DNA of 64,000 nucleotides from Arthrobacter sp. YN (GTDB lineage: Bacteria > Actinomycetota > Actinomycetes > Actinomycetales > Micrococcaceae): contig NZ_CP022436.1 of the NCBI RefSeq assembly GCF_002224285.1, positions 496,001 to 560,000 of the forward strand, written 5' to 3'. Positions 1,685 through 49,300 of this stretch are shown here, piece by piece. The notes beneath the pieces were generated by a model. It searched no databases, was not told the DNA's origin, and saw only the letters and a list, made by a program, of their open reading frames with translations. Position 1 is the stretch's first letter. The number at the start of each line of letters is the position of its first letter. Position numbers and translations under genes: made by a program.

Positions 1685-3061
1685 ATGAAAAGCAACGCAA
1701 CTGCACCAGCAGTTTTACCGGCGGAAACGGCCCTTGGAACCGTCGGGGTTTCGAGCAACAGGGACCTGTGCGGCCCAGCGAATAAGTCGACGCGGGATGT
1801 GAGTGTGGATGTCATCCGAAGCTTCTGCCTTCTGGTGGTGGTTGCACTTCACGCCCTGATGGTTGGAGTGAGCATAGGTCCCCAAGGGCCCGTTTTCGAG
1901 AATGCCTTGGACGGAAATCCTTGGTTCGCCTCTTTGTCCTGGGCGGTCCAGGTCATGCCGCTGTTTTTCATTGCGGGCGGGTTCAGTTCAATCTCGCAAT
2001 GGCGTCGCATGCAGCTTCGGGGTGGCACTGCCGGCGACTACATCCGGCTTCGGGTGGTCCGGCTCCTCGTCCCCGCAGTGGTGGTGGTGGCATCGGTAGG
2101 AGTGGGCCTGGTGGTTCTGACGTTGGCCGGGGTACCTTCAGGGATTGTTGAAACGGCCGGGTACCGGATTAGCCAGCCTTTGTGGTTCCTGGCCGTCTAC
2201 CTCGGATGTTCAGCGCTTGTTCCCCTGCTGGCATTCGCTCACGGGAAGGCGCGTCTCCGTACGCTGTTGGGGTTGGGGTTGGCTATCGCCGCGGTAGATG
2301 CGGGGCGTTTGAGCCTGGAACTCCCTGTCCTCGGGTACGCCAACCTTGCCTTTGTGTGGCTCTTCATCCAGCAACTGGGCTTCTGGCTTGCCGATGGTTC
2401 GGTGGGCCGGATCTCCGGTCTGGTGCGGAAATGGGCCGCAGGGCTGGCGCTGATGCTGATGGCGTACCTCTTCGCCTCTGGTTGGTACTCAGGGGACATG
2501 TTCAGCAACCTGAACCCACCAACAGGGGCCCTTGCGCTCCTGGCAATCGCGCAGCTCATGCTCTTCTCCCTTGCTCAAGAGCGGATCAGGGTGTGGGCCG
2601 CAAAGTCCGGCGCCATGTCCCTTGTGGGCCTGGTGGGTTCCAAGGCGATGACCATCTATCTCTGGCACATGCCGGTGATGGTGTCGATTGCGGGTCTGCT
2701 GCTGGTGATACAGATGCACCTGCCTACTCCCGGCAGTGCGGAGTGGTGGCTGAGCCGGCCCTTATGGCTTGTGGCTGTTGCGTGTGCGCTTGTACCGGTT
2801 GTGAGGTGGCTGGGGCGTCTTGAACGAGTGAGCGCCTCGAGCCGAGCTTCTTTCACCCATCTGAGGACCGTGCTGAGTGCCGTGAGCGGCGTGGGGGGAG
2901 TGGTGGTTCTCCTCGTTGACGGCATCACTCCGGGCACGGCCATTATCAGCGTGGTTCTTTTCCTCTGCGCGCTATGGAGCCACCTCGATCTGCGGAGACC
3001 ACAGATGACCCGCCCCGGCGAGACAAACAGGGAACAGGGCGGCCGCGGTGTGGCGGGCTGA
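1685..3061 (+). CDS. Membrane acyltransferase, acyltransferase-3 family
   Basis: The 458-residue protein starts with about 35 polar residues and then DVSVDVIRSFCLLVVVALHA. This is the first transmembrane helix of the acyltransferase-3 family, with its conserved Arg and the His that is thought to be catalytic. About ten further hydrophobic helices follow, including a late TIYLWHMPV segment typical of the family. Such enzymes move acyl groups onto sugars or other cell-surface molecules across the membrane. The acceptor cannot be told here. The gene is divergent from the histidine kinase and no glycan synthesis genes are adjacent. The ribosome binding site is weak (GAAGAC). Confidence 0.85.
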   Translation: MKSNATAPAVLPAETALGTVGVSSNRDLCGPANKSTRDVSVDVIRSFCLLVVVALHALMVGVSIGPQGPVFENALDGNPWFASLSWAVQVMPLFFIAGGFSSISQWRRMQLRGGTAGDYIRLRVVRLLVPAVVVVASVGVGLVVLTLAGVPSGIVETAGYRISQPLWFLAVYLGCSALVPLLAFAHGKARLRTLLGLGLAIAAVDAGRLSLELPVLGYANLAFVWLFIQQLGFWLADGSVGRISGLVRKWAAGLALMLMAYLFASGWYSGDMFSNLNPPTGALALLAIAQLMLFSLAQERIRVWAAKSGAMSLVGLVGSKAMTIYLWHMPVMVSIAGLLLVIQMHLPTPGSAEWWLSRPLWLVAVACALVPVVRWLGRLERVSASSRASFTHLRTVLSAVSGVGGVVVLLVDGITPGTAIISVVLFLCALWSHLDLRRPQMTRPGETNREQGGRGVAG

Positions 3062-3218
3062 TTTAAAAAACTTTTTCAATCCGCACCCATCCACCCCGTC
3101 CCACCCTCCGAATAGCTGGTGAGACACAAACCGCCGGTGAAGCAAAAGCAGCATCAGCAGCCAGTGTCCCACCACCCAATGGACCCAACGCCCTGGTTCC
3201 AAAAACAAGGAGAATGAC

Positions 3219-3905
3219 ATGTTGTCCACAAAGCGCCCCGCCCTCGCCTTCGTTGGCCTCACTGCAGCCGCCCTTCTCGGTCTCACTGCCTGTGGTGGTT
3301 CCAGCACCTCCACTTCGCCTTCCTCGGCATCTGCCGCTCCGGAGACGTCCTCAGCCATGCCGTCTGCTTCGCCGTCGGCCTCCGCCATGAGCAGTGCCGC
3401 CATGGATCCGGCCGCCAACCTTGTTGGCCCCGGCTGCGCCGGTTACGCCGCACAGGTTCCGGATGGTGCCGGTTCGGTAACGGGCATGGCTAAGGATCCG
3501 GTAGCCGTAGCAGCATCGAACAACCCGCTGCTCAAGACCCTGACCGCCGCCGTTTCCGGTCAGCTCAACCCCAAGGTTGACCTGGTTTCCACCCTGAACG
3601 GCAGCGAATTCACGGTGTTCGCACCGGTTGACGATGCCTTCGCCAAGATCGACGCCGCAACAATCGAGACGCTCAAGACGGACGATGCCCTGCTGAGCAA
3701 AATTCTCACCTACCACGTAGTCCCCGGTCAGCTGACCCCGGACCAGATCGTCGGCACCCACAAGACTGTCCAGGGTGGCGAAGTGACGGTTGCCGGCACC
3801 AAGGATGCCCTCACGGTTGACGGAGCTTCCAATGTGATCTGCGGTGGCGTCCAGACCGCCAACGCCACGGTCTACCTGATCGATTCAGTGCTGATGCCCA
3901 AATAG
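3219..3905 (+). CDS. Fasciclin-domain surface lipoprotein
   Basis: The 228-residue product has a lipoprotein signal peptide ending LGLTAC, with Cys25 as the lipidation site. A Ser/Ala/Pro-rich linker spans about residues 28-65, and a single fasciclin (FAS1) domain runs from about 85 to the end. Typical FAS1 boxes are visible: [15 protein letters not shown], the YHVVPG motif, and a closing [12 protein letters not shown]. The arrangement resembles the mycobacterial MPT70/MPT83 proteins. It is probably anchored on the outer face of the membrane and may act in adhesion. AAGGAG lies before the ATG. A strong terminator hairpin follows at 3945-3977. Confidence 0.92.
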
Positions 3906-4241: not shown

Positions 4242-6272
4242 TTACTTGGTGTTGGAGTCCTGGGGTGGCTTGCCAACCAGGGGTATGGTTCCCGTGGGTG
4301 TTCCCCCGGAGCAGTCGGACTCCGTGCATTTTTCAGCGCAGTCGTGCCTGGTGACGAGGTCAAACTGAACGCCGCCGTGCTGCTCGACGCCCGTCCGGAT
4401 GGCTCGTTCCACCACGGAGGTGGCCAGACGCTTGTGCAGTTGCAGGGGATCACGGCGAAGGTCCTTGACCAGGGCGAAACAGAGCAACAGCATGACGATC
4501 ACAAATGGCAGGGCAGCCACAATGGTCACTCTTTGCAGGCCGGACAACGCTTCCGATGGTTTATCGCCGCCGGCAAGCAGCATGACCGCTGCCACTGCGC
4601 CGGTGAGGCTTCCCCAGAAGATGACCACTCCTCGACGCGGGTGCTCGGCACCATTGGAGCTGAGGGATCCCATCACGATCGAAGCTGCGTCGGCACCGGT
4701 GACGAAGAAGATCGCCACCAGGACCATGGCCAGGACAATGACGGATGCTGTCAGCCAGCCGGGCATGCCCAGGTTCTTGACGAGGTCGAAGAGGGCGCCA
4801 TCGAAGTTGATGGAGGGAGCGCCGTCCACCATGGTCACAAGCCCGGGAGTGCCGGCCTTGTCCGCTTCCTGTTGCACGTGGAAGGCGGCGCCGCCGAAGA
4901 TGCCGAACCAGATCACGCTGACTACGCTCGGCACCAGCAGGACACCAGTGACGAACTGGCGGATGGTGCGGCCGCGGCTGATGCGGGCGATGAACATTCC
5001 CACGAAGGGCGTCCAGGAGATCCACCAGGCCCAGTAGAAGATGGTCCAGCTGGTCATCCAGCTACGCAGGGAGTCGTCTCCCACAGCTTCGGTACGCGAG
5101 GACATTTCGGCCAAATCCCGGGCGTAGTCACCCACGGCTGAGGGGATCAGGTTGAGGATGAACAAGGTGGGTCCTGCGACGAACACGATCAGGGCCAGAA
5201 CAACGGCCAGGACCATGTTGATGTTGGACAACCACTGGATGCCGCGGCTGATGCCTGAAACAGCTGATGCCACGAAGCAGAACGTCAGGATGGCGACGAT
5301 GACCACCAGCACCGGGGTGCCGATTTCACCCAGCCAACCGTTGGACGTCATGCCGCTTCCGATCTGGAGGGCGCCGAGGCCCAGCGAGGCGGCAGTTCCG
5401 AAGAGCGTGGCGAAGATGGCCAGGATGTTGATGAACTTGCCCAGCGGGCCTTCCACCATGCGGATGCCGAACAGTGAGGTGAAGGCGGCAGAGACCAGCT
5501 GCTTGCGGCCCAGGCGGTAGGTGCCATAGGCCATCGCGATGCCAACTACGGCGTACATGGCCCAGGGGTGCAGGGTCCAGTGGAAGATCGAGGTAGCCAT
5601 GGCGGTCTGGATGGCCGCGGGCGTGCGGCCGTCCACGGTTCCGGGTGGCGGTGAGATGTAGTGGTACAGCGGTTCGGCAACACCGTAGAACATGAGGCCG
5701 ATGCCCATGCCGGCGGCGAACATCATGGCCACCCAGGAGATGGTTCGGAACTCGGGCTTCTCTCCGTCCTTGCCCAGCGGGATATTGCCAAACTTGCCGA
5801 GGGCAAGCCACAGGACGAAGACGACGAACAGGGAGGCGAGGACCATGAAGAGCCAGCCCGTGTACTCCATGACCCAGTTCAGGGCGCCCTTGGAGGTATC
5901 GGAGAGGCTGTCCCGTCCAACAAAGCCCCAGACCACGAAGGCGACGGCGACGGCGCCCGTGATCCCGAAGGTGACTTTGTCGAGGGTAAGTTTGCGGTTC
6001 CGGCGGGCCGAGACGGCCTGCTCGGTCTTGGCGTGGCGCAGCTCTTCCATGATCTGTTCGTGTTCTACAGAATCGGAGAGGGGATCTACGCCTCCGTCCT
6101 CAGCGTTGAGGGCTGCCAGGTTGGTGTCGTCGGGGGAGACTCTGATGACGGCTTCAGGGTTCTCCGCGTGTGCGGGGTTGGTCGGGCTGGCTGCACCCGG
6201 GGTACCTGCAACGTGATCGTCGGCAGGTAATTCCTCGGGTGTCAGCGGTTTTGTGTCACTGTTTGTAGCCAT
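4242..6272 (-). CDS. BCCT-family glycine betaine/choline transporter
   Basis: The 676-residue form (ATG at 6272, with AAAGGA 8 bases ahead; an ATG at 6299 is also in frame) has about 80 acidic N-terminal residues, twelve predicted membrane helices and a soluble C-terminal tail of about 90 residues. The glycine-rich stretch GMGIGLMFYGVAEPLYHY is the betaine-type signature of the BCCT family. The tryptophan-rich FYWAWWISWTPFVGMF forms the substrate-site helix. Family members such as BetP are Na+ symporters for quaternary amines. Position next to the betaine catabolic operon suggests a feeding role rather than, or in addition to, osmoprotection. A perfect GATATATC dyad lies about 300 bases upstream. 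Confidence 0.93.
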   Translation of the reverse strand: MATNSDTKPLTPEELPADDHVAGTPGAASPTNPAHAENPEAVIRVSPDDTNLAALNAEDGGVDPLSDSVEHEQIMEELRHAKTEQAVSARRNRKLTLDKVTFGITGAVAVAFVVWGFVGRDSLSDTSKGALNWVMEYTGWLFMVLASLFVVFVLWLALGKFGNIPLGKDGEKPEFRTISWVAMMFAAGMGIGLMFYGVAEPLYHYISPPPGTVDGRTPAAIQTAMATSIFHWTLHPWAMYAVVGIAMAYGTYRLGRKQLVSAAFTSLFGIRMVEGPLGKFINILAIFATLFGTAASLGLGALQIGSGMTSNGWLGEIGTPVLVVIVAILTFCFVASAVSGISRGIQWLSNINMVLAVVLALIVFVAGPTLFILNLIPSAVGDYARDLAEMSSRTEAVGDDSLRSWMTSWTIFYWAWWISWTPFVGMFIARISRGRTIRQFVTGVLLVPSVVSVIWFGIFGGAAFHVQQEADKAGTPGLVTMVDGAPSINFDGALFDLVKNLGMPGWLTASVIVLAMVLVAIFFVTGADAASIVMGSLSSNGAEHPRRGVVIFWGSLTGAVAAVMLLAGGDKPSEALSGLQRVTIVAALPFVIVMLLLCFALVKDLRRDPLQLHKRLATSVVERAIRTGVEQHGGVQFDLVTRHDCAEKCTESDCSGGTPTGTIPLVGKPPQDSNTK

Positions 6273-6657
6273 GAGCGGGTCCTTTGCTCGGCGTGTCATG
6301 AGCCTGAATTTCTACGAGGCCTTGGTGAATGGGTCGGTGGGAAGGTTGGGTCTTCCTCCGATCCGATGGTCATGGCGGGCCGTGGCGCCTCCCCGGGTGC
6401 GCGGTCACGGAGCGGGCAGGCGATAGGGATGATGCACCTCTTCTGGTTCGTGGGACGGGGGCGGTTGAAGGCTCCAAACCGTGTTCCGCAGGAATCAACA
6501 ACATCCGCGCTATGCAACAGAGTGCGCTCCGTCACATCCAAAGTCAAGGGATCCGCGCTCTTTAACAGCAGATTGATATATCAATTGGCTGGAAGTAAAA
6601 CGTTGCGTATCATGGGTTGCGTTGCGAATAGCGCGTCCCCAGCAAGGGAGGGTAGCG
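6273..6657. other. Gene-free region upstream of the BCCT transporter
   Basis: This 385-base stretch lies between the BCCT start and the IclR stop. I see no convincing gene in it. It presumably holds the transporter promoter. The only clear structure is the palindrome at 6572-6585, listed separately. No riboswitch-like fold was recognised. Confidence 0.5.
6572..6585. promoter_or_regulatory. Palindromic GATATATC operator (site A)
   Basis: ATTGATATATCAAT is a perfect 14-base palindrome in a GC-rich background. The same AT core recurs upstream of fdhA (10320-10329), purU (17806-17816 and 17830-17839) and pdxS (18660-18670). The best candidate binder is the GntR-family regulator encoded at 17915, because two copies lie in its own divergent promoter region. 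It would place the betaine transporter in the same regulon. Confidence 0.55.
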
Positions 6658-7464
6658 CTAGCGCCGCCTGTAGCCCATCCGGGTACTGATAGTCAGTCCG
6701 GCTTCCCGGAGGCCCTCAATAAGCCCAGGCTGGTCCTCCGGTGAGAACCGGAACGCCGGTCCGGAGACGCTGACGGCGGCAATTACGCTTCCGGCGTGGT
6801 TGAAGATGGGCACGGCGATGGCAGTGAGGCCAATTTCAAACTCTTCGTGGACAGTGGCGTACCCGTTGCGGGCCACGTCCAGCAGCTGCTTTTCCAGCTC
6901 TCCACGGTTGGTGACGGTCCGCGGCGTACGCGCGGGCAAGCCCACGGCCTTGAGAATCTGGTTGCGTTCGTCGGCGGTCAGCGCGGCAAGAAGGACCTTG
7001 CCACTGGACGTGGCGTGCAGCGGCGTCAGGCTGCCCACCCAGTCGTAGGTGGCCAGGGTTGAGGGTCCCATGGCCTGGTCCACGTTGACGGCGTAGTTCG
7101 ATCGCAGGACGGCCAGGTTGACGGTCTCCTTGTACTCGGCCGCCAGCGCCTCCAGGACTTCCCGTGCTTCATGGACCACGCTCAGCCTGCCGGGAATGGA
7201 GGATGCCAGGCGGAGGATCCCAAAGCCCAGCTGATACTTGCCGCGCTCACTGTTCTGCCTGACGATGTCCCGGTTGACCAAGGAGCCCACCAGCCTGGAC
7301 ACGGTGGATTTGTGGATGCCCATTTCTTCCGCGATTTCACTGACTCCGGCGTCCCCTTCGCGGGCCAGGATTTCCAGGATCTGGAGCGCACGGTCCACAG
7401 ATTGGACGCCGCCGCCTTGGGCGTCTGCGTCCTTGTCGATCTCCGGGTTGCTGCGTGCGGCCAT
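6658..7464 (-). CDS. IclR-family transcriptional regulator
   Basis: The 268-residue protein has an N-terminal winged helix-turn-helix at about residues 22-80 (SVDRALQILEIL, then EIAEEMGIHKSTVSRLVGSL). The C-terminal IclR effector domain includes TSSGKVLLAAL and AIAVPIFNHAGSVIAAVSVSGP. Such regulators bind a small metabolite and control an adjacent catabolic gene. Here it lies between the MoeA homologue and the BCCT transporter, all on one strand, so it may respond to a betaine-pathway intermediate. The ligand cannot be read from sequence. GAGG precedes the ATG. Confidence 0.92.
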   Translation of the reverse strand: MAARSNPEIDKDADAQGGGVQSVDRALQILEILAREGDAGVSEIAEEMGIHKSTVSRLVGSLVNRDIVRQNSERGKYQLGFGILRLASSIPGRLSVVHEAREVLEALAAEYKETVNLAVLRSNYAVNVDQAMGPSTLATYDWVGSLTPLHATSSGKVLLAALTADERNQILKAVGLPARTPRTVTNRGELEKQLLDVARNGYATVHEEFEIGLTAIAVPIFNHAGSVIAAVSVSGPAFRFSPEDQPGLIEGLREAGLTISTRMGYRRR

Positions 7465-7591
7465 GATGCCTCGTGTCGTTGTCCAGGCAGGCCGACCTGG
7501 GCTGGTTGCGCTGTCCGGCCTGCACGCTCGTCTTTCCTCATCCTAGACGGAGTTTTGCACGGGCCCTTTCACGCCTGGGGCCTCGCTTCAT

Positions 7592-8827
7592 CTATGCGCT
7601 GGGAGCTGTCCATGGAAGCGGCAAGACGGAAACAGGCGCGCCGGCCGCCACCCCTTCGGGGGGAACAGCCATATAGCCGTCAGCCCAGGCAAGCCCACGC
7701 ATCATCCCCGGACCCGTGCGGGACGTGGGGAACGCGAGGTCGTGGATGGAAGTGCAGGGCATCAGCCGCGTCCGCCCTGGACAAGGATCGATGTCCGCCC
7801 CGGACGTCACCAGGCGGGCTGCCCGAAGAGGCCGGTTTCCCAGTGCTGCCAGCAGGGGTTCGCCGAGGGTCATGAGCGCCATCATGGCGGCCAGCGGATT
7901 CCCCGGGAGTCCGATGACGAATCGGCCATCTGGAAGTTCAGCCAACACGGCAGGGTGACCGGGTCGCATGGCAATGCCGTCCAGGAGGAGCCTGCCGCCG
8001 AGCGCAGCAATGGCATCGCGGAAATGGTCTGTCCCGGATTTGCCTGTCCCGCCGGTGGTGATGGTGACGTCCGGCCGTAAGCCCCCAGGGGCATCTCCCA
8101 GCGCTGCCAGCCATTCCTCATAAGAGTCGCCAATCCGGAGTTGGCCAGTGGGCTCTGCGCCCAACTGCAGGATGACCGCATCAAGTTGCGGTCCGAACGC
8201 GTCGCGGACCTGCCCCGGTGTCGGCTCGCCCGAGGTCACTACTTCCGAACCGGTCAGTACGACGGCGGCCCTCGGCTTGCGCTGTACCTGGAGGTAATCA
8301 TGGCCCGCGACGGCGGCCAGGGCGATGTGTGCAGGGTTGAGGTGTGTGCCGGCGGGGATCAGGACGTCGCCGGGTGAGGCTTCTTCCCCCGCTGGACGGA
8401 TGTGCCGGCCGGGACGTGCCTCGTCCGGCGTCGCATCAGCTGTCAGCGTGAGGCGTTGGATGCCGGATCCGTCCCCGGAGACGTGGCCGCTTTCCTTGCG
8501 CAGGACTGCTGTGGCGCCGGTGGGTATGAGGCCGCCGGTGGCAATGACGCTGGCTTCTCCGGGGGAGAGTTGCTGCCCTGGCGCGGTGAGGGTCCATGGA
8601 CCGCTGCCATGGGTGGCCCAGCCGTCCATGGCTGACGACGCATAGTGGGGAAGGTTCCGTTGCGCGGTGACTGCGCTGGTCAGGGTTCGTCCGATAGCTT
8701 CCCGGAGGGTGACGTTCACGGGAGGGAGCGGGCCGCCGCAGTGGTAGGCCAAGTGGCGGGCTTCGGCCCAGGTGGGTGCGTGCCGCCGGAAAACGGAAGT
8801 GCCGGCGGCGACTTCTTGGGTAAGCAT
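7592..8827 (-). CDS. moeA: MoeA-like molybdopterin molybdenumtransferase
   Basis: The 411-residue protein follows the MoeA layout. An N-terminal domain contains NLPHYASSAMDGWA, where the conserved Asp after the Ser-Ala-Met helps in molybdate insertion. A MogA-like central domain follows with VLTGSEVV and TGGTGKSGTDH, then GLPGNPLAAM and a C-terminal beta domain. MoeA inserts molybdate into adenylylated molybdopterin. The TGG motif reads TGGTGKSG rather than the usual TGGVSVG, so this is a divergent paralogue. It sits immediately downstream of the formate dehydrogenase and formaldehyde dehydrogenase genes, which suggests dedicated cofactor supply to the molybdoenzyme at 10369. AGGAAG precedes the ATG. 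Confidence 0.85.
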   Translation of the reverse strand: MLTQEVAAGTSVFRRHAPTWAEARHLAYHCGGPLPPVNVTLREAIGRTLTSAVTAQRNLPHYASSAMDGWATHGSGPWTLTAPGQQLSPGEASVIATGGLIPTGATAVLRKESGHVSGDGSGIQRLTLTADATPDEARPGRHIRPAGEEASPGDVLIPAGTHLNPAHIALAAVAGHDYLQVQRKPRAAVVLTGSEVVTSGEPTPGQVRDAFGPQLDAVILQLGAEPTGQLRIGDSYEEWLAALGDAPGGLRPDVTITTGGTGKSGTDHFRDAIAALGGRLLLDGIAMRPGHPAVLAELPDGRFVIGLPGNPLAAMMALMTLGEPLLAALGNRPLRAARLVTSGADIDPCPGRTRLMPCTSIHDLAFPTSRTGPGMMRGLAWADGYMAVPPEGVAAGAPVSVLPLPWTAPSA

Positions 8828-8951: not shown

Positions 8952-10169
8952 TTAGGCCTTCACGTAACCGTTGGGGTTCAGTACGAACTTTGTTGCCGCT
9001 CCGGCGTCGAATTCGGCGTAGCCGCGGGGAGCGTCCTCGAGCGGGATGGCCTGGGCGTTGACTGCCTTGGCGATCTGGACCTTGTCATGCAGGATGGCCA
9101 TCATCAGTTGACGGTTGTATTTCATGACCGGGCACTGGCCAGTGGTGAAGGACAAGGACTTGGCCCAGCCGGTACCAAGAGACAGCGAGAGGGAGCCGTG
9201 CTTGGCGGCGTCGTCGATTCCGCCCGGGTCGCCGGTGACGTAGAGCCCGGGGATGCCCAGGGATCCGCCGGCGGCCGTGATGTCCATGAGGGAGTTCAGC
9301 ACGGTGGCGGGGGCTTCGTGGGAGGCATCCTTACCGTGGCCGCGGGCTTCGAAGCCCACCGCATCCACGCCGCAGTCCACCTCGGGAACGCCGAGGATCT
9401 GCGCGATCTGTTCCTTCGGATCGCCATTGGACACATTGACGGTTTCGCAGCCGAAGGAGCGCGCCTGCGCCAGCCGGTCCTCGTTCATGTCGCCCACAAT
9501 CACGACGGCGGCGCCCAGCAGTTGAGCGCCGACGGCGGCAGCAAGGCCCACGGGCCCGGCACCTGCGACGTACACCGTGGAGCCCACGCCGACGCCGGCA
9601 GTGACTGCGCCATGGAAACCCGTGGGGAAGATGTCCGAGAGCATGGTCAAGTCCATGATCTTTTCCAGGGCCTGATCGCGGTCCGGGAAGCGCAGCAGGT
9701 TCCAGTCGGCGTAGGGAACCAGCACAAACTCTGCCTGTCCACCCACCCAGCCTCCCATGTCCACATAGCCGTAGGCGCTGCCGGGGCGGTCAGGGTTGAC
9801 GTTGAGGCAGATGCCGGTCTTCTGCTCCTTGCAGTTCCGGCAGCGGCCGCAGGAGATGTTGAACGGCACCGAGACGATGTCGCCCACCTTGATGAACTCG
9901 ACGTCGGGTCCCACCTCCACCACTTCGCCGGTGATTTCGTGGCCGAGCACCAGGTCCTGTGGAGCTGTGGTGCGGCCACGGACCATGTGCTGGTCCGAAC
10001 CGCAGATGTTGGTGGTCACGGTGCGGAGGATCGCGCCGTGCGGTACTTTCCGCCCGACGTTTGCGGGGTTGACACCCGGTCCGTCCTTAAGCTCAAACGT
10101 TGGGTAGTCAGTGTCAATGATTTCCACGACACCGGGTTCCTTGTAGGCGACTGCTCTGTTTCCTGACAT
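8952..10169 (-). CDS. fdhA: Glutathione-independent formaldehyde dehydrogenase
   Basis: Starting at the ATG at 10169 (AGGGAGTG just ahead) the protein has 405 residues, close to the roughly 400 of Pseudomonas putida FdhA. It is a zinc medium-chain dehydrogenase. NICGSDQHMVRGR and GHEITGEVVEVG mark the catalytic zinc site, SCGRCRNCKEQKTGIC is the structural zinc loop, and VYVAGAGPVGLAAA is the NAD-binding Rossmann motif. It oxidises formaldehyde to formate with NAD and no thiol cofactor. In this locus it would remove the formaldehyde released by the Rieske betaine demethylase GbcA. A longer in-frame start at 10277 is not needed to match the family. Confidence 0.93.
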   Translation of the reverse strand: MSGNRAVAYKEPGVVEIIDTDYPTFELKDGPGVNPANVGRKVPHGAILRTVTTNICGSDQHMVRGRTTAPQDLVLGHEITGEVVEVGPDVEFIKVGDIVSVPFNISCGRCRNCKEQKTGICLNVNPDRPGSAYGYVDMGGWVGGQAEFVLVPYADWNLLRFPDRDQALEKIMDLTMLSDIFPTGFHGAVTAGVGVGSTVYVAGAGPVGLAAAVGAQLLGAAVVIVGDMNEDRLAQARSFGCETVNVSNGDPKEQIAQILGVPEVDCGVDAVGFEARGHGKDASHEAPATVLNSLMDITAAGGSLGIPGLYVTGDPGGIDDAAKHGSLSLSLGTGWAKSLSFTTGQCPVMKYNRQLMMAILHDKVQIAKAVNAQAIPLEDAPRGYAEFDAGAATKFVLNPNGYVKA

Positions 10170-10319
10170 GGTCACTCCCTGTTCTTTGGCTGTTGCTGAA
10201 ATCTGCTGCCCAATGGTCCGAAAGTGGTGCTTCGGTGAAGAAATACCTCCCCAGGTTTCAGGCCACCGAAGCACCATTCACGGACAACCGGACAGCTGAT
10301 ATTTTCATGAAGTCCTTAT

Positions 10320-10368: not shown

Positions 10369-12687
10369 CTAAGCTTTCTCCAGCCTGATGATCACGGATT
10401 TGGACGTGGGCGTTCCGCTGGTATCCGCTACGGAATCGAGGGGCACCAGGACGTTGGTTTCCGGGTAGTACGCGGCGGCGCATCCCTTCGGCGTCGAATA
10501 GGCCACGAGACGGAAGTTCTCGGCGCGTCGGTCTGTTCCCTGGAATTCGGAGATCAGGTGGACCATGTCCCCGTCGGAAAATCCCAGCTCGGTGATGTCC
10601 TCAGCGTTGATGAGCACCACGCGCCGTCCGCCGTGGATGCCGCGGTAGCGGTCGTCCCTGCCATAGATGGTGGTGTTGTACTGGTCGTGGGAACGCAGGG
10701 TTTGAAGGACCAGCCGGCCGGGCGGGATCTTGATGAACTCCAGTTCGTTGCCTGTGAAATGTGCTTTACCGGAGGCGGTATCGAACTTCCTGGCATCGCG
10801 CGGCGGGTGGGGAAGCACAAAGCCGCCAGGGTGCTGGATCCGCGCTTCGAAGTCCTCAAAACCGTCAAACACGGCTTCGATGTGTTTGCGGATCAGTGCG
10901 TAGTCGTCCCGCATGGCCAGCCAGGAAGCCTGCGGCGTGTTGGGCAGGCGGCTGTGCCCATCCGTGAACAGCCTGTCCGCAAGGTTGCAGACAATGGCTA
11001 CTTCGGAGTGGAGGTGGTCGCTGGCGGGCTTGAGGCGTCCCCGTGATGCATGGACGGCGCTCATGGAATCTTCCACGGTGACCCGTTGATCGCCTGTGCG
11101 CTGGGTATCTTTCTCGGTGCGTCCCAGGGTGGGCAGGATCAGCGCCCGGCGGCCGGTGGACAGATGCGAGTGGTTTAGTTTCGTGGAGATCTGAACACTC
11201 AACCGGGTGTTGGCCAAGGCCAGCTCGGTGACCTCCGAATCAGGGGCGGCCCTCACGAAGTTGCCGCCCATCCCCATGAAGAAGCGGACTTTCCCGTCCC
11301 GCATGGCACGGATGGCTGCCACGGTGTCAAAGCCGTGCTCGCGGGGAGAGCGGAATTCGAATTCCTGGTCCAGCCGGTCGTGGAAGGTCTCCGGCATCTT
11401 TTCGAAGATGCCCATGGTCCGGTCACCCTGGACGTTGGAGTGGCCGCGCACCGGGCAGACGCCTGCGCCGGGCTTACCGATGTTGCCCTGGAGCAGCAGG
11501 ACGTTGACTACATCGCGAAGGGTAGGAACGGAATGCTTGTGTTGGGTCAGTCCCATGGCCCAGCACACGATGGTGGCGCTGGAAGCGAGCATCCGCTCAC
11601 CCGTTGCATGAATCTGTTCCAGGGTGAGGCCTGTTGCCTCCACGATGTCATCCCACTCCACCTTTTCCAGGAAACGCAGGTAGTCATCGATGCCCACGGT
11701 GTGGTTGTCAATGAAGTGGTGGTCCAGGACCGTTTGCAGGCCCGGGGTTTTCCGACCGGCAGCTTCGGCTTCCAGCAGGTATTTGCCCAAGCCTTGGAAG
11801 AGTGCCTGGTCCCCGCCGGCACGGATCTGCAGGAAGTCGTCCGTCAGCTGGGTCCCTTGAATCATTCCGGCCACATGCTGCGGGTTCTCGAAATGCAGGA
11901 GCCCGGCCTCGGGAAGGGGATTGACGGATACGATAACCGCGCCGTTTTTCTTCGCCTTCTCCAGGGCGCTGAGCATACGCGGGTGGTTGGTGCCGGGGTT
12001 CTGTCCTGCAACGAAAATCAGTGACGCCGTTTCCAGGTCCGTCAGGCTGACAGAGCCTTTGCCGATGCCAATGGTTTCCACCAGGGCTGAGCCTGAGGAC
12101 TCGTGGCACATGTTGGAACAGTCCGGGAGGTTGTTCGTACCAATGCCCCGCACCAGGAGCTGGTACACGAACGCTGCCTCGTTGGACGTCCGGCCCGAGG
12201 TATAGAAAACCGACTGATCAGGGTGGTCCATGCCCCGGAGCTCTTCGGCCATGAGGTCATACGCTTCGTCCCAGCCGATGGGCGTGTAATGCGTTGCGCC
12301 TTCGTCCAGGAACATCGGGTGGGTGATCCGGCCTTGCTGGCCCAACCAGAAATCATCGCGGGTCTTGAGCTCGGCAACGGAATGCTGAGCGAAAAACTCG
12401 GGCGTGACGCGGCGGCGGGTGGCTTCCTCGGCTACTGCCTTGGCGCCGTTCTCGCAGAACTCTGCCGCATTGCGCTTCTCATGTTCAGGCCAGGCGCAAC
12501 CCATGCAGTCGAACCCGTCCAACTGGTTCACTGCCAGCAGGGTCTGGACACTGCGGAGCGGCCCCATCTGTTCCAGCGAAATTTTCAGGGCGTTGGCAAC
12601 AGCCGGGATGCCTACGGCCTTGGTCTTGGGTTTGGTGACGGTCAGCTTCGACTCGTCAATGTTCTCGCGCGGAGCTTTGGAATGCAT
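10369..12687 (-). CDS. FdhF/YdeP-type molybdopterin oxidoreductase, likely formate dehydrogenase
   Basis: The 772-residue protein matches the FdhF/YdeP branch of the molybdopterin oxidoreductases. Cys61-x2-Cys64 and Cys78 near the N terminus resemble an iron-sulfur site, but I see no clear fourth cysteine. The active-site pair is Cys194-His195 in NMCHESSG, aligned with selenocysteine-His of E. coli FdhH, so cysteine replaces selenocysteine. FVAGQNPGTNHPR and the C-terminal molydopterin-binding domain are also present. Formate oxidation is inferred from context: PurU and FdhA both make formate beside it. The true electron acceptor is unknown, and no FdhD or beta subunit is nearby. AAGGG precedes the ATG, and folD ends 10 bases upstream. 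Confidence 0.82.
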   Translation of the reverse strand: MHSKAPRENIDESKLTVTKPKTKAVGIPAVANALKISLEQMGPLRSVQTLLAVNQLDGFDCMGCAWPEHEKRNAAEFCENGAKAVAEEATRRRVTPEFFAQHSVAELKTRDDFWLGQQGRITHPMFLDEGATHYTPIGWDEAYDLMAEELRGMDHPDQSVFYTSGRTSNEAAFVYQLLVRGIGTNNLPDCSNMCHESSGSALVETIGIGKGSVSLTDLETASLIFVAGQNPGTNHPRMLSALEKAKKNGAVIVSVNPLPEAGLLHFENPQHVAGMIQGTQLTDDFLQIRAGGDQALFQGLGKYLLEAEAAGRKTPGLQTVLDHHFIDNHTVGIDDYLRFLEKVEWDDIVEATGLTLEQIHATGERMLASSATIVCWAMGLTQHKHSVPTLRDVVNVLLLQGNIGKPGAGVCPVRGHSNVQGDRTMGIFEKMPETFHDRLDQEFEFRSPREHGFDTVAAIRAMRDGKVRFFMGMGGNFVRAAPDSEVTELALANTRLSVQISTKLNHSHLSTGRRALILPTLGRTEKDTQRTGDQRVTVEDSMSAVHASRGRLKPASDHLHSEVAIVCNLADRLFTDGHSRLPNTPQASWLAMRDDYALIRKHIEAVFDGFEDFEARIQHPGGFVLPHPPRDARKFDTASGKAHFTGNELEFIKIPPGRLVLQTLRSHDQYNTTIYGRDDRYRGIHGGRRVVLINAEDITELGFSDGDMVHLISEFQGTDRRAENFRLVAYSTPKGCAAAYYPETNVLVPLDSVADTSGTPTSKSVIIRLEKA

Positions 12688-12697
12688 GGGAAACCCT

Positions 12698-13582
12698 TCA
12701 GATCCGGGAAGTGGAAGCAGTCAGCAGTGCGGCGGGGGACTGCTGCCGGGCGGCTTCCGCTGTGTGCAGCAGCAACAGTGCGGTGGTCACTGACCCCACA
12801 CCGCCTGGAACCGGACTCAGGCCGGCGGCGACGCCGGTGACGCTGGCTTCGTCGACGTCACCCACCAGGGAACCGTCGGGCAGGACGTTTGTTCCGACGT
12901 CGATCACTACCGTCTCCGGTGAGACATCGCTGCCCTTCAGCAGCCCGGTGCGCCCCGCAGCAACAACCACGACGTCGGCGGGCCGGGTATGGCGTTCCAG
13001 CGGCCCCGACTTGGAATGGCAGATGGTGACGGTCGCGTCCCGCTCCAGAAGGAGCAGGGACAGCGGCTTGCCCACCACGGCGGAACGTCCGACGACGGTG
13101 ACGTTCCGGCCCGCAACCGGGATCTCAAAGTGGTCCAGCAGTTCCACCACCGCTCGCGCAGTAGCGGGTGCGAAGGCCGGTTGGCCCACAGCCAAGCGGC
13201 CGAGGCTGAGGGGATTGGCGCCGTCGATGTCCTTCTCCGGGGCGATGAGCCCCACCAACCGGTCTGCCCGAACGGCTGCCGGCAGGGGAGTTTGGAGGAT
13301 GATGCCGTGGACGGTTGGCTCCGCGCTGAGGTCCGCCAGGACACTGGCCAGTGCTTGTTCGCTGGCGTCGTGGCCAAGATCGACAATCCTGCATCCAATG
13401 CCTGCGCGTTCGGCTGAACGCTCGATCGAACGGACGTACCAGAGCGTTGACTCGTCCTCCGTGGCCACCACAACAGCGAGGGTGGGCCGCATTCCATCGG
13501 AGCCAAGGCTTTGGGCCTCATCCTGGGCTTGCTGCCGGATCAGGGAGGCGAGTCCCTTGCCGGAAAGAACTGCAGTGGTCAT
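12698..13582 (-). CDS. folD: FolD-like methylene-THF dehydrogenase, probably lacking cyclohydrolase
   Basis: The 294-residue protein has the FolD fold: TLAVVVATEDES, the active-site Tyr49 in WYVRSI, EKDIDGANPL, the NADP loop VVGRSAVVGKPLS and PVPGGVGSVT. Aligned with E. coli FolD (YVASK), the lysine essential for cyclohydrolase activity is Ile53 (codon at 13424-13426). The PCTPxG and GPMT motifs are also altered. In homologues, loss of that lysine abolishes the cyclohydrolase while the dehydrogenase remains. The gene overlaps fchA by 4 bases (ATGA), whose product can supply the missing step. It would oxidise methylene-THF made by dimethylglycine oxidase. A housekeeping FolD is probably encoded elsewhere. 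Confidence 0.88.
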   Translation of the reverse strand: MTTAVLSGKGLASLIRQQAQDEAQSLGSDGMRPTLAVVVATEDESTLWYVRSIERSAERAGIGCRIVDLGHDASEQALASVLADLSAEPTVHGIILQTPLPAAVRADRLVGLIAPEKDIDGANPLSLGRLAVGQPAFAPATARAVVELLDHFEIPVAGRNVTVVGRSAVVGKPLSLLLLERDATVTICHSKSGPLERHTRPADVVVVAAGRTGLLKGSDVSPETVVIDVGTNVLPDGSLVGDVDEASVTGVAAGLSPVPGGVGSVTTALLLLHTAEAARQQSPAALLTASTSRI

Positions 13583-14205
13583 GAGAGGATCCTTTCGCGG
13601 ACACGCTTGACCAGGGAGTCGGCGGCCAGGACAACCTTGTCCTCAAGGCCGTCTGTCTGGTCCGCCAAACGTGTGCGGGCTGCGGTGTCTTTGATGGCCA
13701 CCACGTTGATGTCGATGTTGACCCGGGCGGTGGTGGCGGCAGCGCGGGCTGCATCTGCTGCCGCTGCGACGTCGCTGATGACGTTGGGGTTGGCTACGTC
13801 GAAAAGTTCGGTTGCGAGGTCCACCACCTCACCGGAAACCTTGATGAGCTGGGCAGGCGTGTGGGCGGCCTGGACCAGGGCGTCCCGGATGGCGGCGGCC
13901 TTTGTTGCCTTGAGCTGCTCGGTGTCGGAGGGCAGCTTGTAGGAGTCGATGACGGACTGGAAAGCGTGTTCGTCGGCGTCCGCCAGCCGCAATGCCTCAA
14001 CGATCAAGTGGTCGGCTGCGCTGGTGATCCTGGCGACGAGCGCCGCGTGCTGCTCATATTTTGGTCCGGTGGTGTATCTGGCCACCATCGCCACCAAGGC
14101 AGCACCCTGTGCCGCATGCAGTGCCGCAGCTGCGCCGCCACCGGGGGTCGGCTGACGTGAGGCGAGCCGGGAAAGGTAGTCATTGATGGTTTCTGAGCTG
14201 ATCAT
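13579..14205 (-). CDS. fchA: Formiminotransferase-cyclodeaminase family protein (methenyl-THF cyclohydrolase)
   Basis: The 208-residue protein matches the cyclodeaminase/cyclohydrolase (FTCD_C) family over its full length. It begins INDYLSRLASRQPTPGGGAAA, where the glycine-rich TPGGG segment is the family hallmark for binding folate. Helical segments with IDSYKLP and many Ala-rich helices follow, as in FchA. Members hydrolyse methenyl-THF to 10-formyl-THF or deaminate formimino-THF. No histidine or purine degradation genes are nearby, so the cyclohydrolase role fits better. It is translationally coupled to folD (ATGA overlap) and follows dimethylglycine oxidase. AGGACGG precedes the ATG. Confidence 0.88.
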   Translation of the reverse strand: MISSETINDYLSRLASRQPTPGGGAAAALHAAQGAALVAMVARYTTGPKYEQHAALVARITSAADHLIVEALRLADADEHAFQSVIDSYKLPSDTEQLKATKAAAIRDALVQAAHTPAQLIKVSGEVVDLATELFDVANPNVISDVAAAADAARAAATTARVNIDINVVAIKDTAARTRLADQTDGLEDKVVLAADSLVKRVRERILS

Positions 14206-14338: not shown

Positions 14339-16879
<2,541 letters not shown>

Positions 16880-17794
16880 TTAGCGGAAAACCACGGTGCT
16901 GGTCTGGTCCAGCAGCACGCGGTGTTCGCAATGCCACTTGACGGCGCGGGACAATGCCAGGGCTTCGGCATCCTGGCCCACGGTTGAGAGGGTGGTGGGG
17001 CCGTAGCTGTGATCGACGCGGATGACTTCCTGCTCGATGATCGGCCCCTCGTCCAGGTCCGCGGTGACGTAGTGGGCAGTGGCACCCACCAGCTTCACGC
17101 CGCGGTCATAGGCCTGGTGGTAGGGGCGGGCGCCCTTGAAGCCAGGCAGGAAGGAGTGGTGGATGTTGATGGCGCGGCCCTCAAGGGCGCGGCAAAGATC
17201 GTCGGAGAGGACCTGCATGTAGCGTGCCAGCACCACGAGGTCCGCGTTGTACTCCTCCACCAGGTCAAGAAGGCGCTGTTCAGCCTCTGCCTTGGTGTCA
17301 GGGGTGACGGGAATGTAGACGAAAGGCAAGCCTGCGGCTTCAGCCATGGCCCGGTGGGTCTCGTGGTTGGAAGCAACCACGACGAGGTCGCCGCCAAGGC
17401 TGCCGCCTCGCCAGCGGAAGATGAGGTCGTTCAGGCAGTGCCCGAACTTGGACACCATCACCAGGACCCGCTTTTTGGTCTGGTCATGGAAGCTGAACTT
17501 CATCTTGAAGCGGTCGGCAATCGCGCTGAACTCCTCTTCAAGGCGCTCCGGCGAGTAGGACAGCGGGCCCGAGAAAGCGGTCCGCAGGTGCAGCGTTTGG
17601 CGGAGGCCGTCGTCGAACTGTTGGTGCTCTTCGATGTTGAAGCCGCGCTCAAACAGAAAGGTGGTGACTGCCTGCACGATCCCGGCGCGTTCGACGCACG
17701 ACAATGTGAGTACGAACTTCTGTGCTTGCTCTTCGTTGAGCAATTCGGGCTTGGGTAGTGTGCTTACCGGTGAGTCTGTAGCCACGAGGGTCAT
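16880..17794 (-). CDS. purU: Formyltetrahydrofolate deformylase
   Basis: The 304-residue protein has an N-terminal ACT domain (about residues 26-105, FVLTLSCVERAGIVQAVTTF). A formyltransferase-fold domain follows with the PurU motifs VLARYMQVLSDDLC, INIHHSFLPGFKGA (catalytic Asn and His) and LDEGPIIEQ (catalytic Asp). It hydrolyses 10-formyl-THF to formate and THF. This regenerates free THF for dimethylglycine oxidase and drives the folate branch towards formate. It is the first gene of the minus-strand cluster. AGGAGG lies at the start, and operator-like AT motifs lie immediately upstream at 17806-17839. The ACT domain suggests feedback by an amino acid such as glycine, inferred from the family. 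Confidence 0.95.
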   Translation of the reverse strand: MTLVATDSPVSTLPKPELLNEEQAQKFVLTLSCVERAGIVQAVTTFLFERGFNIEEHQQFDDGLRQTLHLRTAFSGPLSYSPERLEEEFSAIADRFKMKFSFHDQTKKRVLVMVSKFGHCLNDLIFRWRGGSLGGDLVVVASNHETHRAMAEAAGLPFVYIPVTPDTKAEAEQRLLDLVEEYNADLVVLARYMQVLSDDLCRALEGRAINIHHSFLPGFKGARPYHQAYDRGVKLVGATAHYVTADLDEGPIIEQEVIRVDHSYGPTTLSTVGQDAEALALSRAVKWHCEHRVLLDQTSTVVFR

Positions 17795-21020: not shown

Positions 21021-22322
21021 ATGTCTGCTCCAGTCGTGCCCCTCAATTCACGCGGAAAACTCGCTTCATCTTTGCCTGCAGAGCAGCTGGCGGAGATCAG
21101 CAGTTTGTTCGAGTTCCGGCGCAAGGGATATTCCCTCGATGCGCCCTTCTACACCGACGCCACGATCTTCAAGATCGACATGGAAGCCATTTTTGGCCAG
21201 CACTGGATCTTTGCCGGCAGCATCGCCGAACTGCCGGAGCCGGGCGACTACATCACCGTCGACTATGGTCCCTACTCCCTGATCGTGCTGCGCAATGACG
21301 ACGGCGGCGTGAACGTCCTGCACAACGTCTGCCGCCACCGCGGTGCCCGCGTCCTGACCGAGCCCGCCGGGTCAACCGGAAACCTGGTCTGCGGCTACCA
21401 CTCCTGGACGTACTCCCCGGAGGGCAACCTGATCCACGCCTCGGCGCCGGGCGAGACCAAGTTCGACAAGGGCTGCTTCGGCCTCAAGCGTGCTCACAGC
21501 CGCGTGGTTGCCGGACTCATCTTCGTCTGCATCGCCGACGAGCCGCCGGCAGATTTTGACGAAACGTCCAAAATCTTCGAGCCGTACCTCGCGCCGCACG
21601 ACCTCTCCAAGACGAAGATTGCCTACCAGCAGAACATCGTTGAAGAGGGCAACTGGAAGCTCGTCATGGAGAACAACCGTGAGTGCTACCACTGCGATGG
21701 CCACCCTGAGCTGGCCTGTTCCCTCTTCCCCACCTGGGGCCTGACGGAGGGACTGATTCCGGCCCACCTTGAAGAAGTATGGGACCGCAACAAGGAAGCA
21801 CAGTCCTCGCTGGAGGAGCGTTGCCGCCGCTACGGCCTGCCCTATGAGGTGGTGGAGGAGCTCGATACCCGCATTGCGGGAATCCGCATCTCACGTGAAT
21901 CGCTCGACGGCGAGGGCGAGTCATTCTCGGCCGATGGCCGCCGGCTTTCCAAGAAGTTGCTCGGCGACTTGCGGGACTTCCGTCTGGGCCGTTGCTCGAT
22001 GCACCTGCAGCCCAACAGCTGGTTCCACTTCCAGAGCGACCACGTCATCACGTTCGGTGTCTTCCCCATCAACGAACACCAGTCCCTGGTCCGCACCACG
22101 TGGCTGGTAGCCGACGACGCCGTGGAAGGCGTGGACTACGACCTGGAAAAGCTCACCTACACCTGGAAGCAGACCAACCTGCAGGACAAGGCGTTCGTGG
22201 AGCTGTGCCAGACGGGCGCCGGCAGCCCCGCCTACGAGCCCGGCCCCTACATGAAGAGCGAATACCAGGTGGAGGCCTTCATCAACTGGTACGTACAGCG
22301 TGTCCAGGAGCACTTGGCATGA
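21021..22322 (+). CDS. gbcA: Rieske-type glycine betaine demethylase, oxygenase component
   Basis: The 433-residue protein is a ring-hydroxylating-type oxygenase alpha subunit. The Rieske [2Fe-2S] ligands are Cys104, His106, Cys124 and His127 in NVCRHRGA and VCGYHSWTY. The mononuclear iron site lies in NNRECYHCDGHPEL. In GbcA enzymes this centre removes one methyl group of glycine betaine as formaldehyde, leaving dimethylglycine. The stop overlaps the gbcB start (ATGA), and dimethylglycine oxidase and formaldehyde dehydrogenase are in the same locus, so the assignment is well supported. GGGAGG precedes the ATG. Other quaternary-amine demethylases (stachydrine, carnitine) are similar, but their partner genes are absent. 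Confidence 0.93.
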   Translation: MSAPVVPLNSRGKLASSLPAEQLAEISSLFEFRRKGYSLDAPFYTDATIFKIDMEAIFGQHWIFAGSIAELPEPGDYITVDYGPYSLIVLRNDDGGVNVLHNVCRHRGARVLTEPAGSTGNLVCGYHSWTYSPEGNLIHASAPGETKFDKGCFGLKRAHSRVVAGLIFVCIADEPPADFDETSKIFEPYLAPHDLSKTKIAYQQNIVEEGNWKLVMENNRECYHCDGHPELACSLFPTWGLTEGLIPAHLEEVWDRNKEAQSSLEERCRRYGLPYEVVEELDTRIAGIRISRESLDGEGESFSADGRRLSKKLLGDLRDFRLGRCSMHLQPNSWFHFQSDHVITFGVFPINEHQSLVRTTWLVADDAVEGVDYDLEKLTYTWKQTNLQDKAFVELCQTGAGSPAYEPGPYMKSEYQVEAFINWYVQRVQEHLA

Positions 22323-44347: not shown

Positions 44348-45925
44348 CTAGGAGTTCTGGGTTACCACTTGGGGAGAGTCCTCGGGAGTGACCAAGGCGG
44401 CGTGCTCGGCCAGGACTCCGGTCTTGTGCCTGATGCGGAGACGGTAGAGCAGCGTTCCGCCAATGATGACCGTGCCAACGAAGATCACGCCACCCCATTG
44501 CAGGTACCATTCGAACGGCGGCACCGAGTTGTAAATCTCCGGCCGCGGCCACACAAGGTTCAGCGTCATGGCCCCGCCCCACAGCACGGCCAGGATGTTC
44601 ACGGGCAGCCCCCATTTGCCGAGGCTGAATCCCGGTTCCGATCCGTCGTCCTTCAAGGGCCACTTCTTCAAGAACCGGCGACGCAGCATAGGCACCGTCA
44701 CCAGCAGGTAGGACAGGTAGATCAGGACGATGCTGATGCTGGAGAGGATGGTGAAGATGGCCGGCTGGGAGATGTTGACGATCAGCGGGATGACGGCAAC
44801 GATGCCGATGACGATGGCGGCAACGGTTGGCGTTTTCCGGGTGGGGTGTACTTTGCTGAGCTGACGGCTGAAGGGAAGGTTGTTGTCCCGGGCCATGGCG
44901 AACATCATCCGGATGGCTGCTGCATGGACGGCGAGGGTACAGACCACCACGGCTACCACGATGCACGCCAGGAAGGCCTTGCCGAAGGGGCCGCCCAGTA
45001 CTGAAAGAACGATGTATTGCAGCCCGCCATCAGCGGCTCCGAGCTTGGGATCCGAGAGATCGGGCGCGGCCAGGATTCCGCCGAGGAGGAGCAAACCTCC
45101 CAGGAGGAAGGAAGCCGCGACAGCGCGTAGGATCGCCCTGGGCGCCGTCTTCTTGGGGTCTTTGGTTTCTTCGCCCAAGGAGCTGGCGGTGTCAAAGCCG
45201 TACATGACGTACCCCGAAGCCATGGCAGCAATGAGGAACACTCCGAAGAAGCCCAAGGGATGTTCTTCACCGAATCCGGCGGTATCCAGGAGGACTTCCG
45301 GCCCCCGCACGGAGTGCCAGAGAAGCGCCGCAATGAGCAGGACGGCCGCAACCAGTTCCACGAACACGCCAACGCTGTTGATCATGGTCATGAGTTTCAC
45401 GCCAAACGCGTTGATGAGTGTGGAAATGCCGATCATGATGCTGGCCAGGATGACCCCGTTGACGGCGAAGTCGTAAGGACCTGTTCCGTCGCCCACCAAC
45501 TGGAAGCCGCTCCAGATTTGGGGGAGGGTGATTTGGAGGGCCAAGGCAACGGACCCCAGAGCCATGATGGAGGAGAGCAGCAGCAACCAGCCCGCCAACC
45601 AGGCCCACGTTCCGGTGGAAAGCCTCTTGGCCCAGTTGTACACCGACCCGGCCACCGGATAACGCCCGGCCAACTCCGCAAAACACAAGGCGACCATCAG
45701 CTGGCCGACGAAGACGATGGGCCACGACCAGGCGTAGGCGGGTCCCGCCGTCGAGAATCCGAAGTAAAACAGTTGAAAAACGCCGGTGAGAATGGAGATG
45801 TAGCTGACGCCGGCGGCGAAGCTGGCGAACTTACCGATGCTGCGGTCCAGGGTTTGGGCATAGCCAAACTCGTCCATGCCGCTTGCATCGCTCTTGCAGG
45901 GTCCTAATTTGCTGGGTTCTGACAT
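44348..45925 (-). CDS. APC-superfamily permease, likely choline or amine uptake
   Basis: The 525-residue protein has about twelve hydrophobic helices. It opens with FGYAQTLDRSIGKFASFAAGVSYISILTG and has SSLGEETKDPKKTAPRAIL in the first loop, hallmarks of the amino acid/polyamine/organocation (APC) family of GABA-permease type. AGGAG precedes the ATG. It is the third gene of the betB-codA transcript. I therefore infer that it imports choline or a related amine for CodA, though family members carry many substrates. Confidence 0.88.
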   Translation of the reverse strand: MSEPSKLGPCKSDASGMDEFGYAQTLDRSIGKFASFAAGVSYISILTGVFQLFYFGFSTAGPAYAWSWPIVFVGQLMVALCFAELAGRYPVAGSVYNWAKRLSTGTWAWLAGWLLLLSSIMALGSVALALQITLPQIWSGFQLVGDGTGPYDFAVNGVILASIMIGISTLINAFGVKLMTMINSVGVFVELVAAVLLIAALLWHSVRGPEVLLDTAGFGEEHPLGFFGVFLIAAMASGYVMYGFDTASSLGEETKDPKKTAPRAILRAVAASFLLGGLLLLGGILAAPDLSDPKLGAADGGLQYIVLSVLGGPFGKAFLACIVVAVVVCTLAVHAAAIRMMFAMARDNNLPFSRQLSKVHPTRKTPTVAAIVIGIVAVIPLIVNISQPAIFTILSSISIVLIYLSYLLVTVPMLRRRFLKKWPLKDDGSEPGFSLGKWGLPVNILAVLWGGAMTLNLVWPRPEIYNSVPPFEWYLQWGGVIFVGTVIIGGTLLYRLRIRHKTGVLAEHAALVTPEDSPQVVTQNS

Positions 45926-46070
45926 GCGAACTCCTAGTTCAGACGTGCACGAATGGTGATAACCTGCGGCCGCCGTTGGTCGCAGTCGAAATCAAAGGCC
46001 GGGCACCACGCTGTGCCTCCGGCTGTTTCCCCCATTGTTTGTTGCGTGGGTCTAAAAGCAGGGTGCCTGT

Positions 46071-47723: not shown

Positions 47724-47758
47724 CTATTTCTCCTTGCCGTGGTCTGCGAACCAGCCGG

Positions 47759-49234: not shown

Positions 49235-49254
49235 ACGAAGCAGGCTAGTGCATC

Positions 49255-49293: not shown

Positions 49294-49300
49294 AAAAGAT

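Follow-up and report, generated by a model that had tools for sequence, protein, structure and literature searches.

A FolD without the catalytic lysine overlapping an FchA-type gene in Arthrobacter sp. YN: a probable split folate module in a betaine-type operon

In Escherichia coli FolD the active-site motif reads YVASK, and in yeast MTD1 the position of this Lys is taken by Thr. The FolD of Clostridium perfringens is reportedly a dehydrogenase only, and FolD and FchA are said to be needed together to replace the E. coli folD. The occurrence of FchA as a separate protein in some microbes is mentioned in the available part of PMC7219735, with reference to the C. perfringens work of Aluri et al. 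2016, and for acetogens and syntrophs the accessible text of PMC3584212 describes fhs-fchA-folD loci in which fchA lies near folD. A dimethylglycine oxidase gene cluster of Arthrobacter is credited to Meskys et al. 2001 in the accessible portion of PMC3534580. In the window, by which we mean the whole stretch of 64,000 nucleotides of Arthrobacter sp. YN analysed here, the product of a folD gene has Ile at the position of the catalytic Lys, and this gene adjoins an fchA-type gene. Judging from the sequence comparisons described below, the two genes very probably represent a bifunctional FolD that has been split into a dehydrogenase-only FolD and a separate cyclohydrolase.

The folD-fchA pair and its surroundings

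Residues 49-53 of FolD read YVRSI, so that the protein lacks the YxxxK catalytic motif of bifunctional FolDs. In four PDB alignments Ile53 stands opposite Lys without gaps, at the position that corresponds to K54 of the E. coli enzyme (PMC5688156, available part). The PCTPxG and GPMT motifs are replaced by PATARA and GSVT, respectively, and Tyr49, Gln97, Lys117, Asp118 and Asp120 do not vary across 26 aligned FolDs, 24 of which are Lys-less. A preliminary description of the locus had already reported the Ile codon at the Lys position, the two changed motifs, the retained Tyr49 and a 4-base overlap between folD and fchA; the sequence, together with the alignments, bears out all of these features, and the bases shared by the two genes are 13579-13582. 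Ile occupies the Lys position in all of the 120 best-listed FolD relatives among 6983 scored (119 YVRSI and one YVHSI), and purifying selection acts on FolD (dN/dS of 0.097-0.131 in six pairs), so that Ile53 represents more than chance; with Ile in all these nearest listed proteins, a chance event or a sequencing error could be ruled out as its source.

A predicted model of the protein (pLDDT 92.1) has the complete FolD fold, with a helix of residues 44-59 that carries both Tyr49 and Ile53, and membership of the FolD/MTHFD family is indicated by PF00763 (91.4 bits, gathering threshold 32.8) and PF02882 (183.5 bits, gathering threshold 27). The NCBIfam cut-off for bifunctional FolD was reached by none of the 25 models shown (30 matched), the best score being 266.3 versus 421 bits. 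Membership of the MTD1 type was considered and rejected, as the yeast structure 1edz gives an E-value of 5e-4, compared with values down to 9.1e-59 for FolD entries.

The fchA product belongs to the FTCD_C family (PF04961, E-value 8e-51, 172.8 bits against a gathering threshold of 24.5), and its nearest PDB sequence is a methenyl-THF cyclohydrolase (7vg4, E-value 8.6e-29), which we take to come from Methylobacterium. Because its score with the FchA equivalog NF045657 is 144.9 bits, below the cut-off of 275 bits, we classify the protein as a member of the FTCD_C family that is FchA-like by context. A second, distant FTCD_C homologue (31%) is found in the genome at G000:C1:1090804-1091301 (L005, L131).

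Table 1. Features of the folD-fchA region in the window
Feature	Position	Strand	Basis and remarks
BCCT-family transporter	4242..6299	-	TIGR00842, 491.7 bits, above cut-off 407.55
MoeA-type molybdenum cofactor gene	7592..8827	-	Pfam MoeA_N, MoCF_biosynth, MoeA_C
fdhA, glutathione-independent formaldehyde dehydrogenase	8952..10277	-	TIGR02819, 748.9 bits, above cut-off 636.95
FdhF/YdeP-family molybdopterin oxidoreductase	10369..12687	-	TIGR01701, 950.3 bits, above cut-off 582.15; candidate for formate oxidation, putative substrate
folD	12698..13582	-	294 aa; Lys-less (YVRSI), predicted to act as methylene-THF dehydrogenase only
Ile53 codon (ATC), replaces catalytic Lys	13424..13426	-	Sequence reading and alignments
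fchA	13579..14205	-	208 aa; predicted methenyl-THF cyclohydrolase of the FTCD_C family; shares 4 bases with folD
Dimethylglycine oxidase type flavoprotein (DAO, FAO_M, GCV_T)	14339..16831	-	Pfam; putative specific name, from domains and context
purU, 10-formyl-THF deformylase	16880..17794	-	TIGR00655, 320.5 bits, above cut-off 285.95
GbcA-like Rieske oxygenase (resembles glycine betaine monooxygenase)	21021..22322	+	NF058607, 384.6, below cut-off 670; Rieske and Ring_hydroxyl_A

The oxidase and purU genes lie upstream of fchA and folD on the same strand, and the gene for the YdeP-type oxidoreductase starts 10 bases downstream of folD (Table 1). The region looks like a pathway from betaine through dimethylglycine to sarcosine, with enzyme names taken from their families and a presumed flux. 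Most likely, the operon of PurU, dimethylglycine oxidase, FchA, FolD and oxidoreductase would convert the methyl groups of betaine to formate, and soil hosts of the Arthrobacter type probably use glycine betaine as food. Further along the window (44348-51741) there are genes for a permease, a GMC oxidoreductase, an aldehyde dehydrogenase and a BCCT-like protein, which by eye resemble a choline-to-betaine cluster.

In the proposed series of reactions, FolD would oxidise 5,10-methylene-THF, of which the dimethylglycine oxidase type protein is the likely source, to 5,10-methenyl-THF, which a Lys-less FolD would hydrolyse poorly or not at all. Hydrolysis of methenyl-THF to 10-formyl-THF would be carried out by FchA, PurU would then release formate and THF, and the YdeP-type oxidoreductase may oxidise the formate, perhaps to CO2. 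We infer both enzyme activities, the direction of the flux and the substrate of the YdeP-type protein from the sequence. The one-way flux that the preliminary description had attributed to the split is not retained, as its direction would depend on PurU and formate oxidation, and not on the split.

The 5.06 Mb genome contains three FolDs, and Lys is missing solely in the FchA-linked copy of the window. One of the others (YVGGK) adjoins a glyA-like gene, has no FchA nearby and presumably serves housekeeping. The third (YVNSK) adjoins PurU and a GCV_T protein in a cluster at 2456781, and the FchA profile finds nothing in the surrounding 11 kb, so that a second cluster of the demethylation type in this host has a Lys-bearing FolD. 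In this second cluster (L132, G000:C1:2452000-2463000) the GCV_T protein, PurU and Lys-bearing FolD are found at 4782-7816, without FchA. The two demethylation-type clusters, of which one has the split pair and the other a Lys-bearing FolD, thus offer a natural comparison within one genome. Four PurU-type genes are present (G000:C1 at 512883, 4640516, 1415576 and 2457634), with 46-100% identity to the window copy.

Lys state of FolD and adjacency to FchA

A scan of genome contigs gave 65 related loci. In 64 of these a separate FTCD_C gene adjoins folD, as in the window, with FchA immediately upstream of a Lys-less FolD. A start was detected by script for 40 of the 64, and 37 of these show the 4-base overlap. 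The oxidase and PurU are also upstream in 58/65 loci, some of the others ending at contig edges, and a YdeP-type gene lies at most 3 kb downstream in 42/64. The 65th locus, from Geothrix (L076), has a distant FolD with YQRWL. Since the 64 loci were retrieved by likeness to the query, they do not form an unbiased sample.

The survey, whose sample is free of Clostridia/Firmicutes genomes, gave 225 FolD rows, reduced to 196 by removal of identical rows. Among these distinct FolDs, 114 adjoin an FchA-type gene, with Ile at the Lys position in 90, Val in 12, Ala in five, Leu in four, Thr in one and Lys in none; the other two are frame-broken drafts (L073 and L075), for which a tblastn reading gives YVRSI. 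Hence, Lys is kept by 0/112 readable FchA-adjacent FolDs versus 77/82 non-adjacent ones, where three Leu and two Val account for the remainder. In additional rows, all 26 FolDs without FchA have Lys, and the three FolDs that adjoin FchA all have Thr. The outcome named in the preliminary description as speaking against its proposal, that Lys would be equally common beside fchA, was therefore not seen; the split that it proposed is well supported by these comparisons, although its catabolic label turned out to be too narrow.

Searches anchored on FchA gave a match in 100 of 245 genomes of the family (131 rows). A set of 59 family FchA loci from other genomes, chosen mainly among the stronger rows and not selected on FolD, includes 33 with an adjacent FolD, which is Lys-less in every case (28 Ile, 4 Leu and 1 Thr), and 26 with no FolD within the fetched stretch. 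The FchA homologues of the latter have 34-52% identity (L101-L106, L108, L109, L111, L112, L116, L117, L120, L121, L123-L126, L129, L134-L138, L141 and L142). At the level of the phylum, a match with E-value ≤ 1e-12 was obtained in 100 of 346 genomes, and 13 of the 28 new loci given have an adjacent FolD, again always Lys-less (12 Val and 1 Ile). No FolD was found near FTCD_C in the 30 loci given from the Geothrix phylum, in which 127 genomes have a match.

With FolD as the anchor, 120 family genomes yielded 15 copies at 49-100% identity, all of them FchA-adjacent by their coordinates. All other family FolD rows have at most 41% identity, and the 60 that were fetched all carry Lys. In the phylum, the 26 new FolDs among the best 30 listed matches in 346 genomes, which come from genomes without an FchA match, all have Lys and Gln, and 25 genomes picked for having FchA gave 27 FolD rows, of which 19 are FchA-adjacent (12 Val, 5 Ala and 2 Ile) and eight are not (4 Lys, 2 Leu and 2 Val). 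The five exceptions that are Lys-less and non-adjacent (L076, L241, L242, L266 and L267) come from genomes that hold an FTCD_C-type domain elsewhere, as a match inside a 622-aa frame in the genome of L076, and as FchA on other contigs for L241 and L242 (G293, G478) and for L266 and L267 (G327, G349). The choice of these last four genomes was based on their FchA, and they are therefore by themselves no test of the rule that links Lys and FchA.

The co-occurrence of Lys loss and FchA runs in one direction only. An FchA-type match is present in 49 of the 120 family genomes, 15 with a close Lys-less FolD, three with an MTD1-like FolD and 31 with neither. A FolD of 49-100% identity is thus found in 15/49 genomes with FchA versus 0/71 others (one-sided p = 3.3e-7, uncorrected for kinship). 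The FchA homologues of the 31 genomes without a Lys-less FolD are in many cases weak, and the FolDs read, from 18 of these genomes, are Lys-bearing. The perfect co-occurrence expected in the preliminary description therefore stands as far as Lys is lost in all readable FchA-adjacent FolDs, but fails in the other direction, since 31 of the 49 family genomes with FchA lack a Lys-less FolD.

The three genomes with an MTD1-like FolD (G015, G045 and G069) have one PF02882 match each, of the Thr type (YARYT or YAEYT) and adjacent to an FchA-profile match (loci L333-L335 for G069, G045 and G015). They gave no match in the FolD similarity search, the Thr type being seen by PF02882, and the MTD1-like search was limited to these genomes. 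A bacterial MTD1 homologue with YARYT also lies immediately behind an FTCD_C gene in L133 (G028:C43:50849-55460, 1869-3601), and the protein matches 1edz with an E-value of 9e-63, the runner-up giving 3e-17.

The idea that FchA is required in every catabolic folD cluster was also considered, and was rejected on account of four clusters with a Lys-bearing FolD: folD-purU of Agrobacterium (L302), glyA-folD-purU of Pseudomonas (L304), a folD next to an FAD oxidoreductase on an Arthrobacter plasmid (L305), and the cluster at 2456781 of the genome itself. No FchA-profile match was found in the stretches fetched for these four loci.

Origins and genomic settings of Lys-less FolDs

A tree of 72 FolD rows (41 Lys-less and 31 with Lys) was built without the Lys column. 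The Lys-less rows form a group of YVRSI/L and YERxA forms, a group of YRGQV and YERHV, and a group of L133 and L076, each with an SH-aLRT value of 99. The quick tree implies at least three changes of the Lys state, of which starred branches force only one. A single origin of the Lys-less FolDs is not rejected by the AU test (p = 0.687 with all rows and 0.723 minus the two MTD1-like rows), and trees in which they are held together beat the quick free tree by 11.4 and 15.0 log units, respectively. As the Lys-less rows fall into about three clades and may share a single origin, the adjacency counts reflect a small number of independent events. Of the 41 Lys-less rows, those of the YVRSI/L and YVNSL forms retain Gln97, whereas the remaining 16 have Leu, Phe or Tyr there; Gln is found in 31/31 rows with Lys.

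Val-type FolDs (YRGQV and YRRQV) adjoin FchA in L153, L157-L159 and L163-L170 and, in those rows that were checked, lack the active-site Gln as well. Their 120 nearest listed proteins are all without Lys, several of them being named bifunctional. In the two Val-type loci scanned, L159 and L170, a CooC-like ATPase is found beside FchA, and L170 also has a RACo-type gene; by their gene content, these settings appear to be as in Wood-Ljungdahl clusters. In a Saccharimonadales MAG (L074, 5363-6837), FchA and a Lys-less FolD lie amid purine-like genes (PurF-like by Pfam, the remainder by eye), and this is the single FolD found in the 0.8 Mb genome. Given that FchA is present in 1/239 genomes of the Saccharimonadales phylum sample, the pair in L074 could stem from lateral gain or from a binning error. 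Since the split pair is found also in purine and Wood-Ljungdahl-like settings, it would be a general split FolD and not a catabolic invention, and the 'catabolic variant' of the preliminary description is too narrow, the more so as other catabolic folD-purU clusters keep Lys without FchA.

We put forward tentatively, as a joint proposal that may well prove wrong in part, that the Lys of FolD signals, by a single residue, whether a separate FTCD_C cyclohydrolase is present, with the Lys-less forms wired to FchA as one module. The proposal would embrace Ile/Leu, Val, Ala/Ile and MTD1-like Thr forms, whether these arose once or several times, and roles in betaine catabolism and in Wood-Ljungdahl-like C1 flow, the pair being the sole FolD-type route to 10-formyl-THF in some genomes (the three Thr-type ones and Saccharimonadales). 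If this is true, 'bifunctional' names would be wrong across a large group. The comparisons offer a simple sequence rule (Lys present or not, FchA adjacent or not) by which to separate dehydrogenase-only from bifunctional FolDs. As many Lys-less relatives are publicly named bifunctional, C1 models of soil actinobacteria and anaerobes may assign the reaction to the wrong gene.

Alternative explanations and known systems

The preliminary description had taken Lys to be needed for the cyclohydrolase and not for the dehydrogenase, which agrees with E. coli FolD K54N, where cyclohydrolase activity is undetectable and dehydrogenase activity is about 19%, but not with silkworm MTHFD K53A, which retains both activities, with kcat/Km values of 0.097 for C (wild type 0.13) and 0.051 for D (wild type 0.043) (PMC5688156 and PMC6443876, available parts). 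Nearly full C activity in the silkworm variant means that loss of Lys need not abolish hydrolysis, and FolD of the window might thus still be a useful cyclohydrolase by means of another residue or a bound water, FchA adding capacity or acting otherwise. The Gln97 retained in the window FolD is in line with this, as is the modelling of MTHFD2, which left the role of Lys in hydrolysis unsettled (PMC9173628, available part). We nevertheless consider it unlikely, in view of the E. coli variant, of the FTCD_C domain in every Lys-less-FolD genome examined for one (25 phylum genomes having been preselected for FchA), and of the loss of the active-site Gln in other Lys-less types (16/41 Lys-less rows versus 0/31 Lys rows).

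It is less probable still that FchA is a formimino-THF cyclodeaminase or another FTCD_C enzyme, leaving methenyl-THF to the other two FolDs or to spontaneous hydrolysis, which can occur according to the available part of the E. coli FolD study (PMC5688156). The score under the NCBIfam FchA cut-off and a stand-alone FTCD_C gene within a histidine operon of Peptoclostridium would fit such a role, but the nearest solved sequence is named methenyl-THF cyclohydrolase, the six neighbouring genes scanned include no histidine gene, and FchA is constantly paired with a folate dehydrogenase. We give hardly any weight to the idea that the Ile-variant FolD is a decaying or regulatory copy maintained by the operon, which the two other FolDs of the genome could suggest: the dN/dS values, the conserved substrate residues and the whole FolD fold predicted all argue against decay, and the pair holds the sole FolD found in the Saccharimonadales genome, just as the Thr-type FolD by FchA is the sole PF02882 match in three family genomes. 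A split between a dehydrogenase-only FolD and a separate cyclohydrolase is therefore the explanation that we favour.

Loss of the FolD Lys beside fchA in actinobacteria was not found in a literature search by titles and abstract starts, with subscription journals mostly outside its range. The Arthrobacter dimethylglycine oxidase cluster comes from the same bacteria and has the same oxidase type as the window, and the accessible portion of PMC3534580 does not mention fchA or the Lys. The acetogen and syntroph loci differ by their Wood-Ljungdahl setting, whereas PurU and the oxidase of the window point to oxidation to formate. Yeast MTD1 shares the FolD fold and a single activity, being a monofunctional NAD-dependent dehydrogenase, but the window FolD is far nearer to bifunctional FolD. 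In Methylobacterium the dehydrogenase MtdA is likewise separate from an FchA-family cyclohydrolase, Fch, but MtdA belongs to a dehydrogenase family different from FolD; in M. bullatum (L081), the gene ahead of FchA matches the FolD profile no more than weakly (24 bits). Clostridium perfringens has, like the window, a separate FolD dehydrogenase and FchA cyclohydrolase, but is an anaerobe with Fhs, whereas the pair described here is part of an Arthrobacter-type betaine operon. What is new is the lineage, the sequence signature and the setting in a betaine-type operon, the principle of the split being already known in clostridia.
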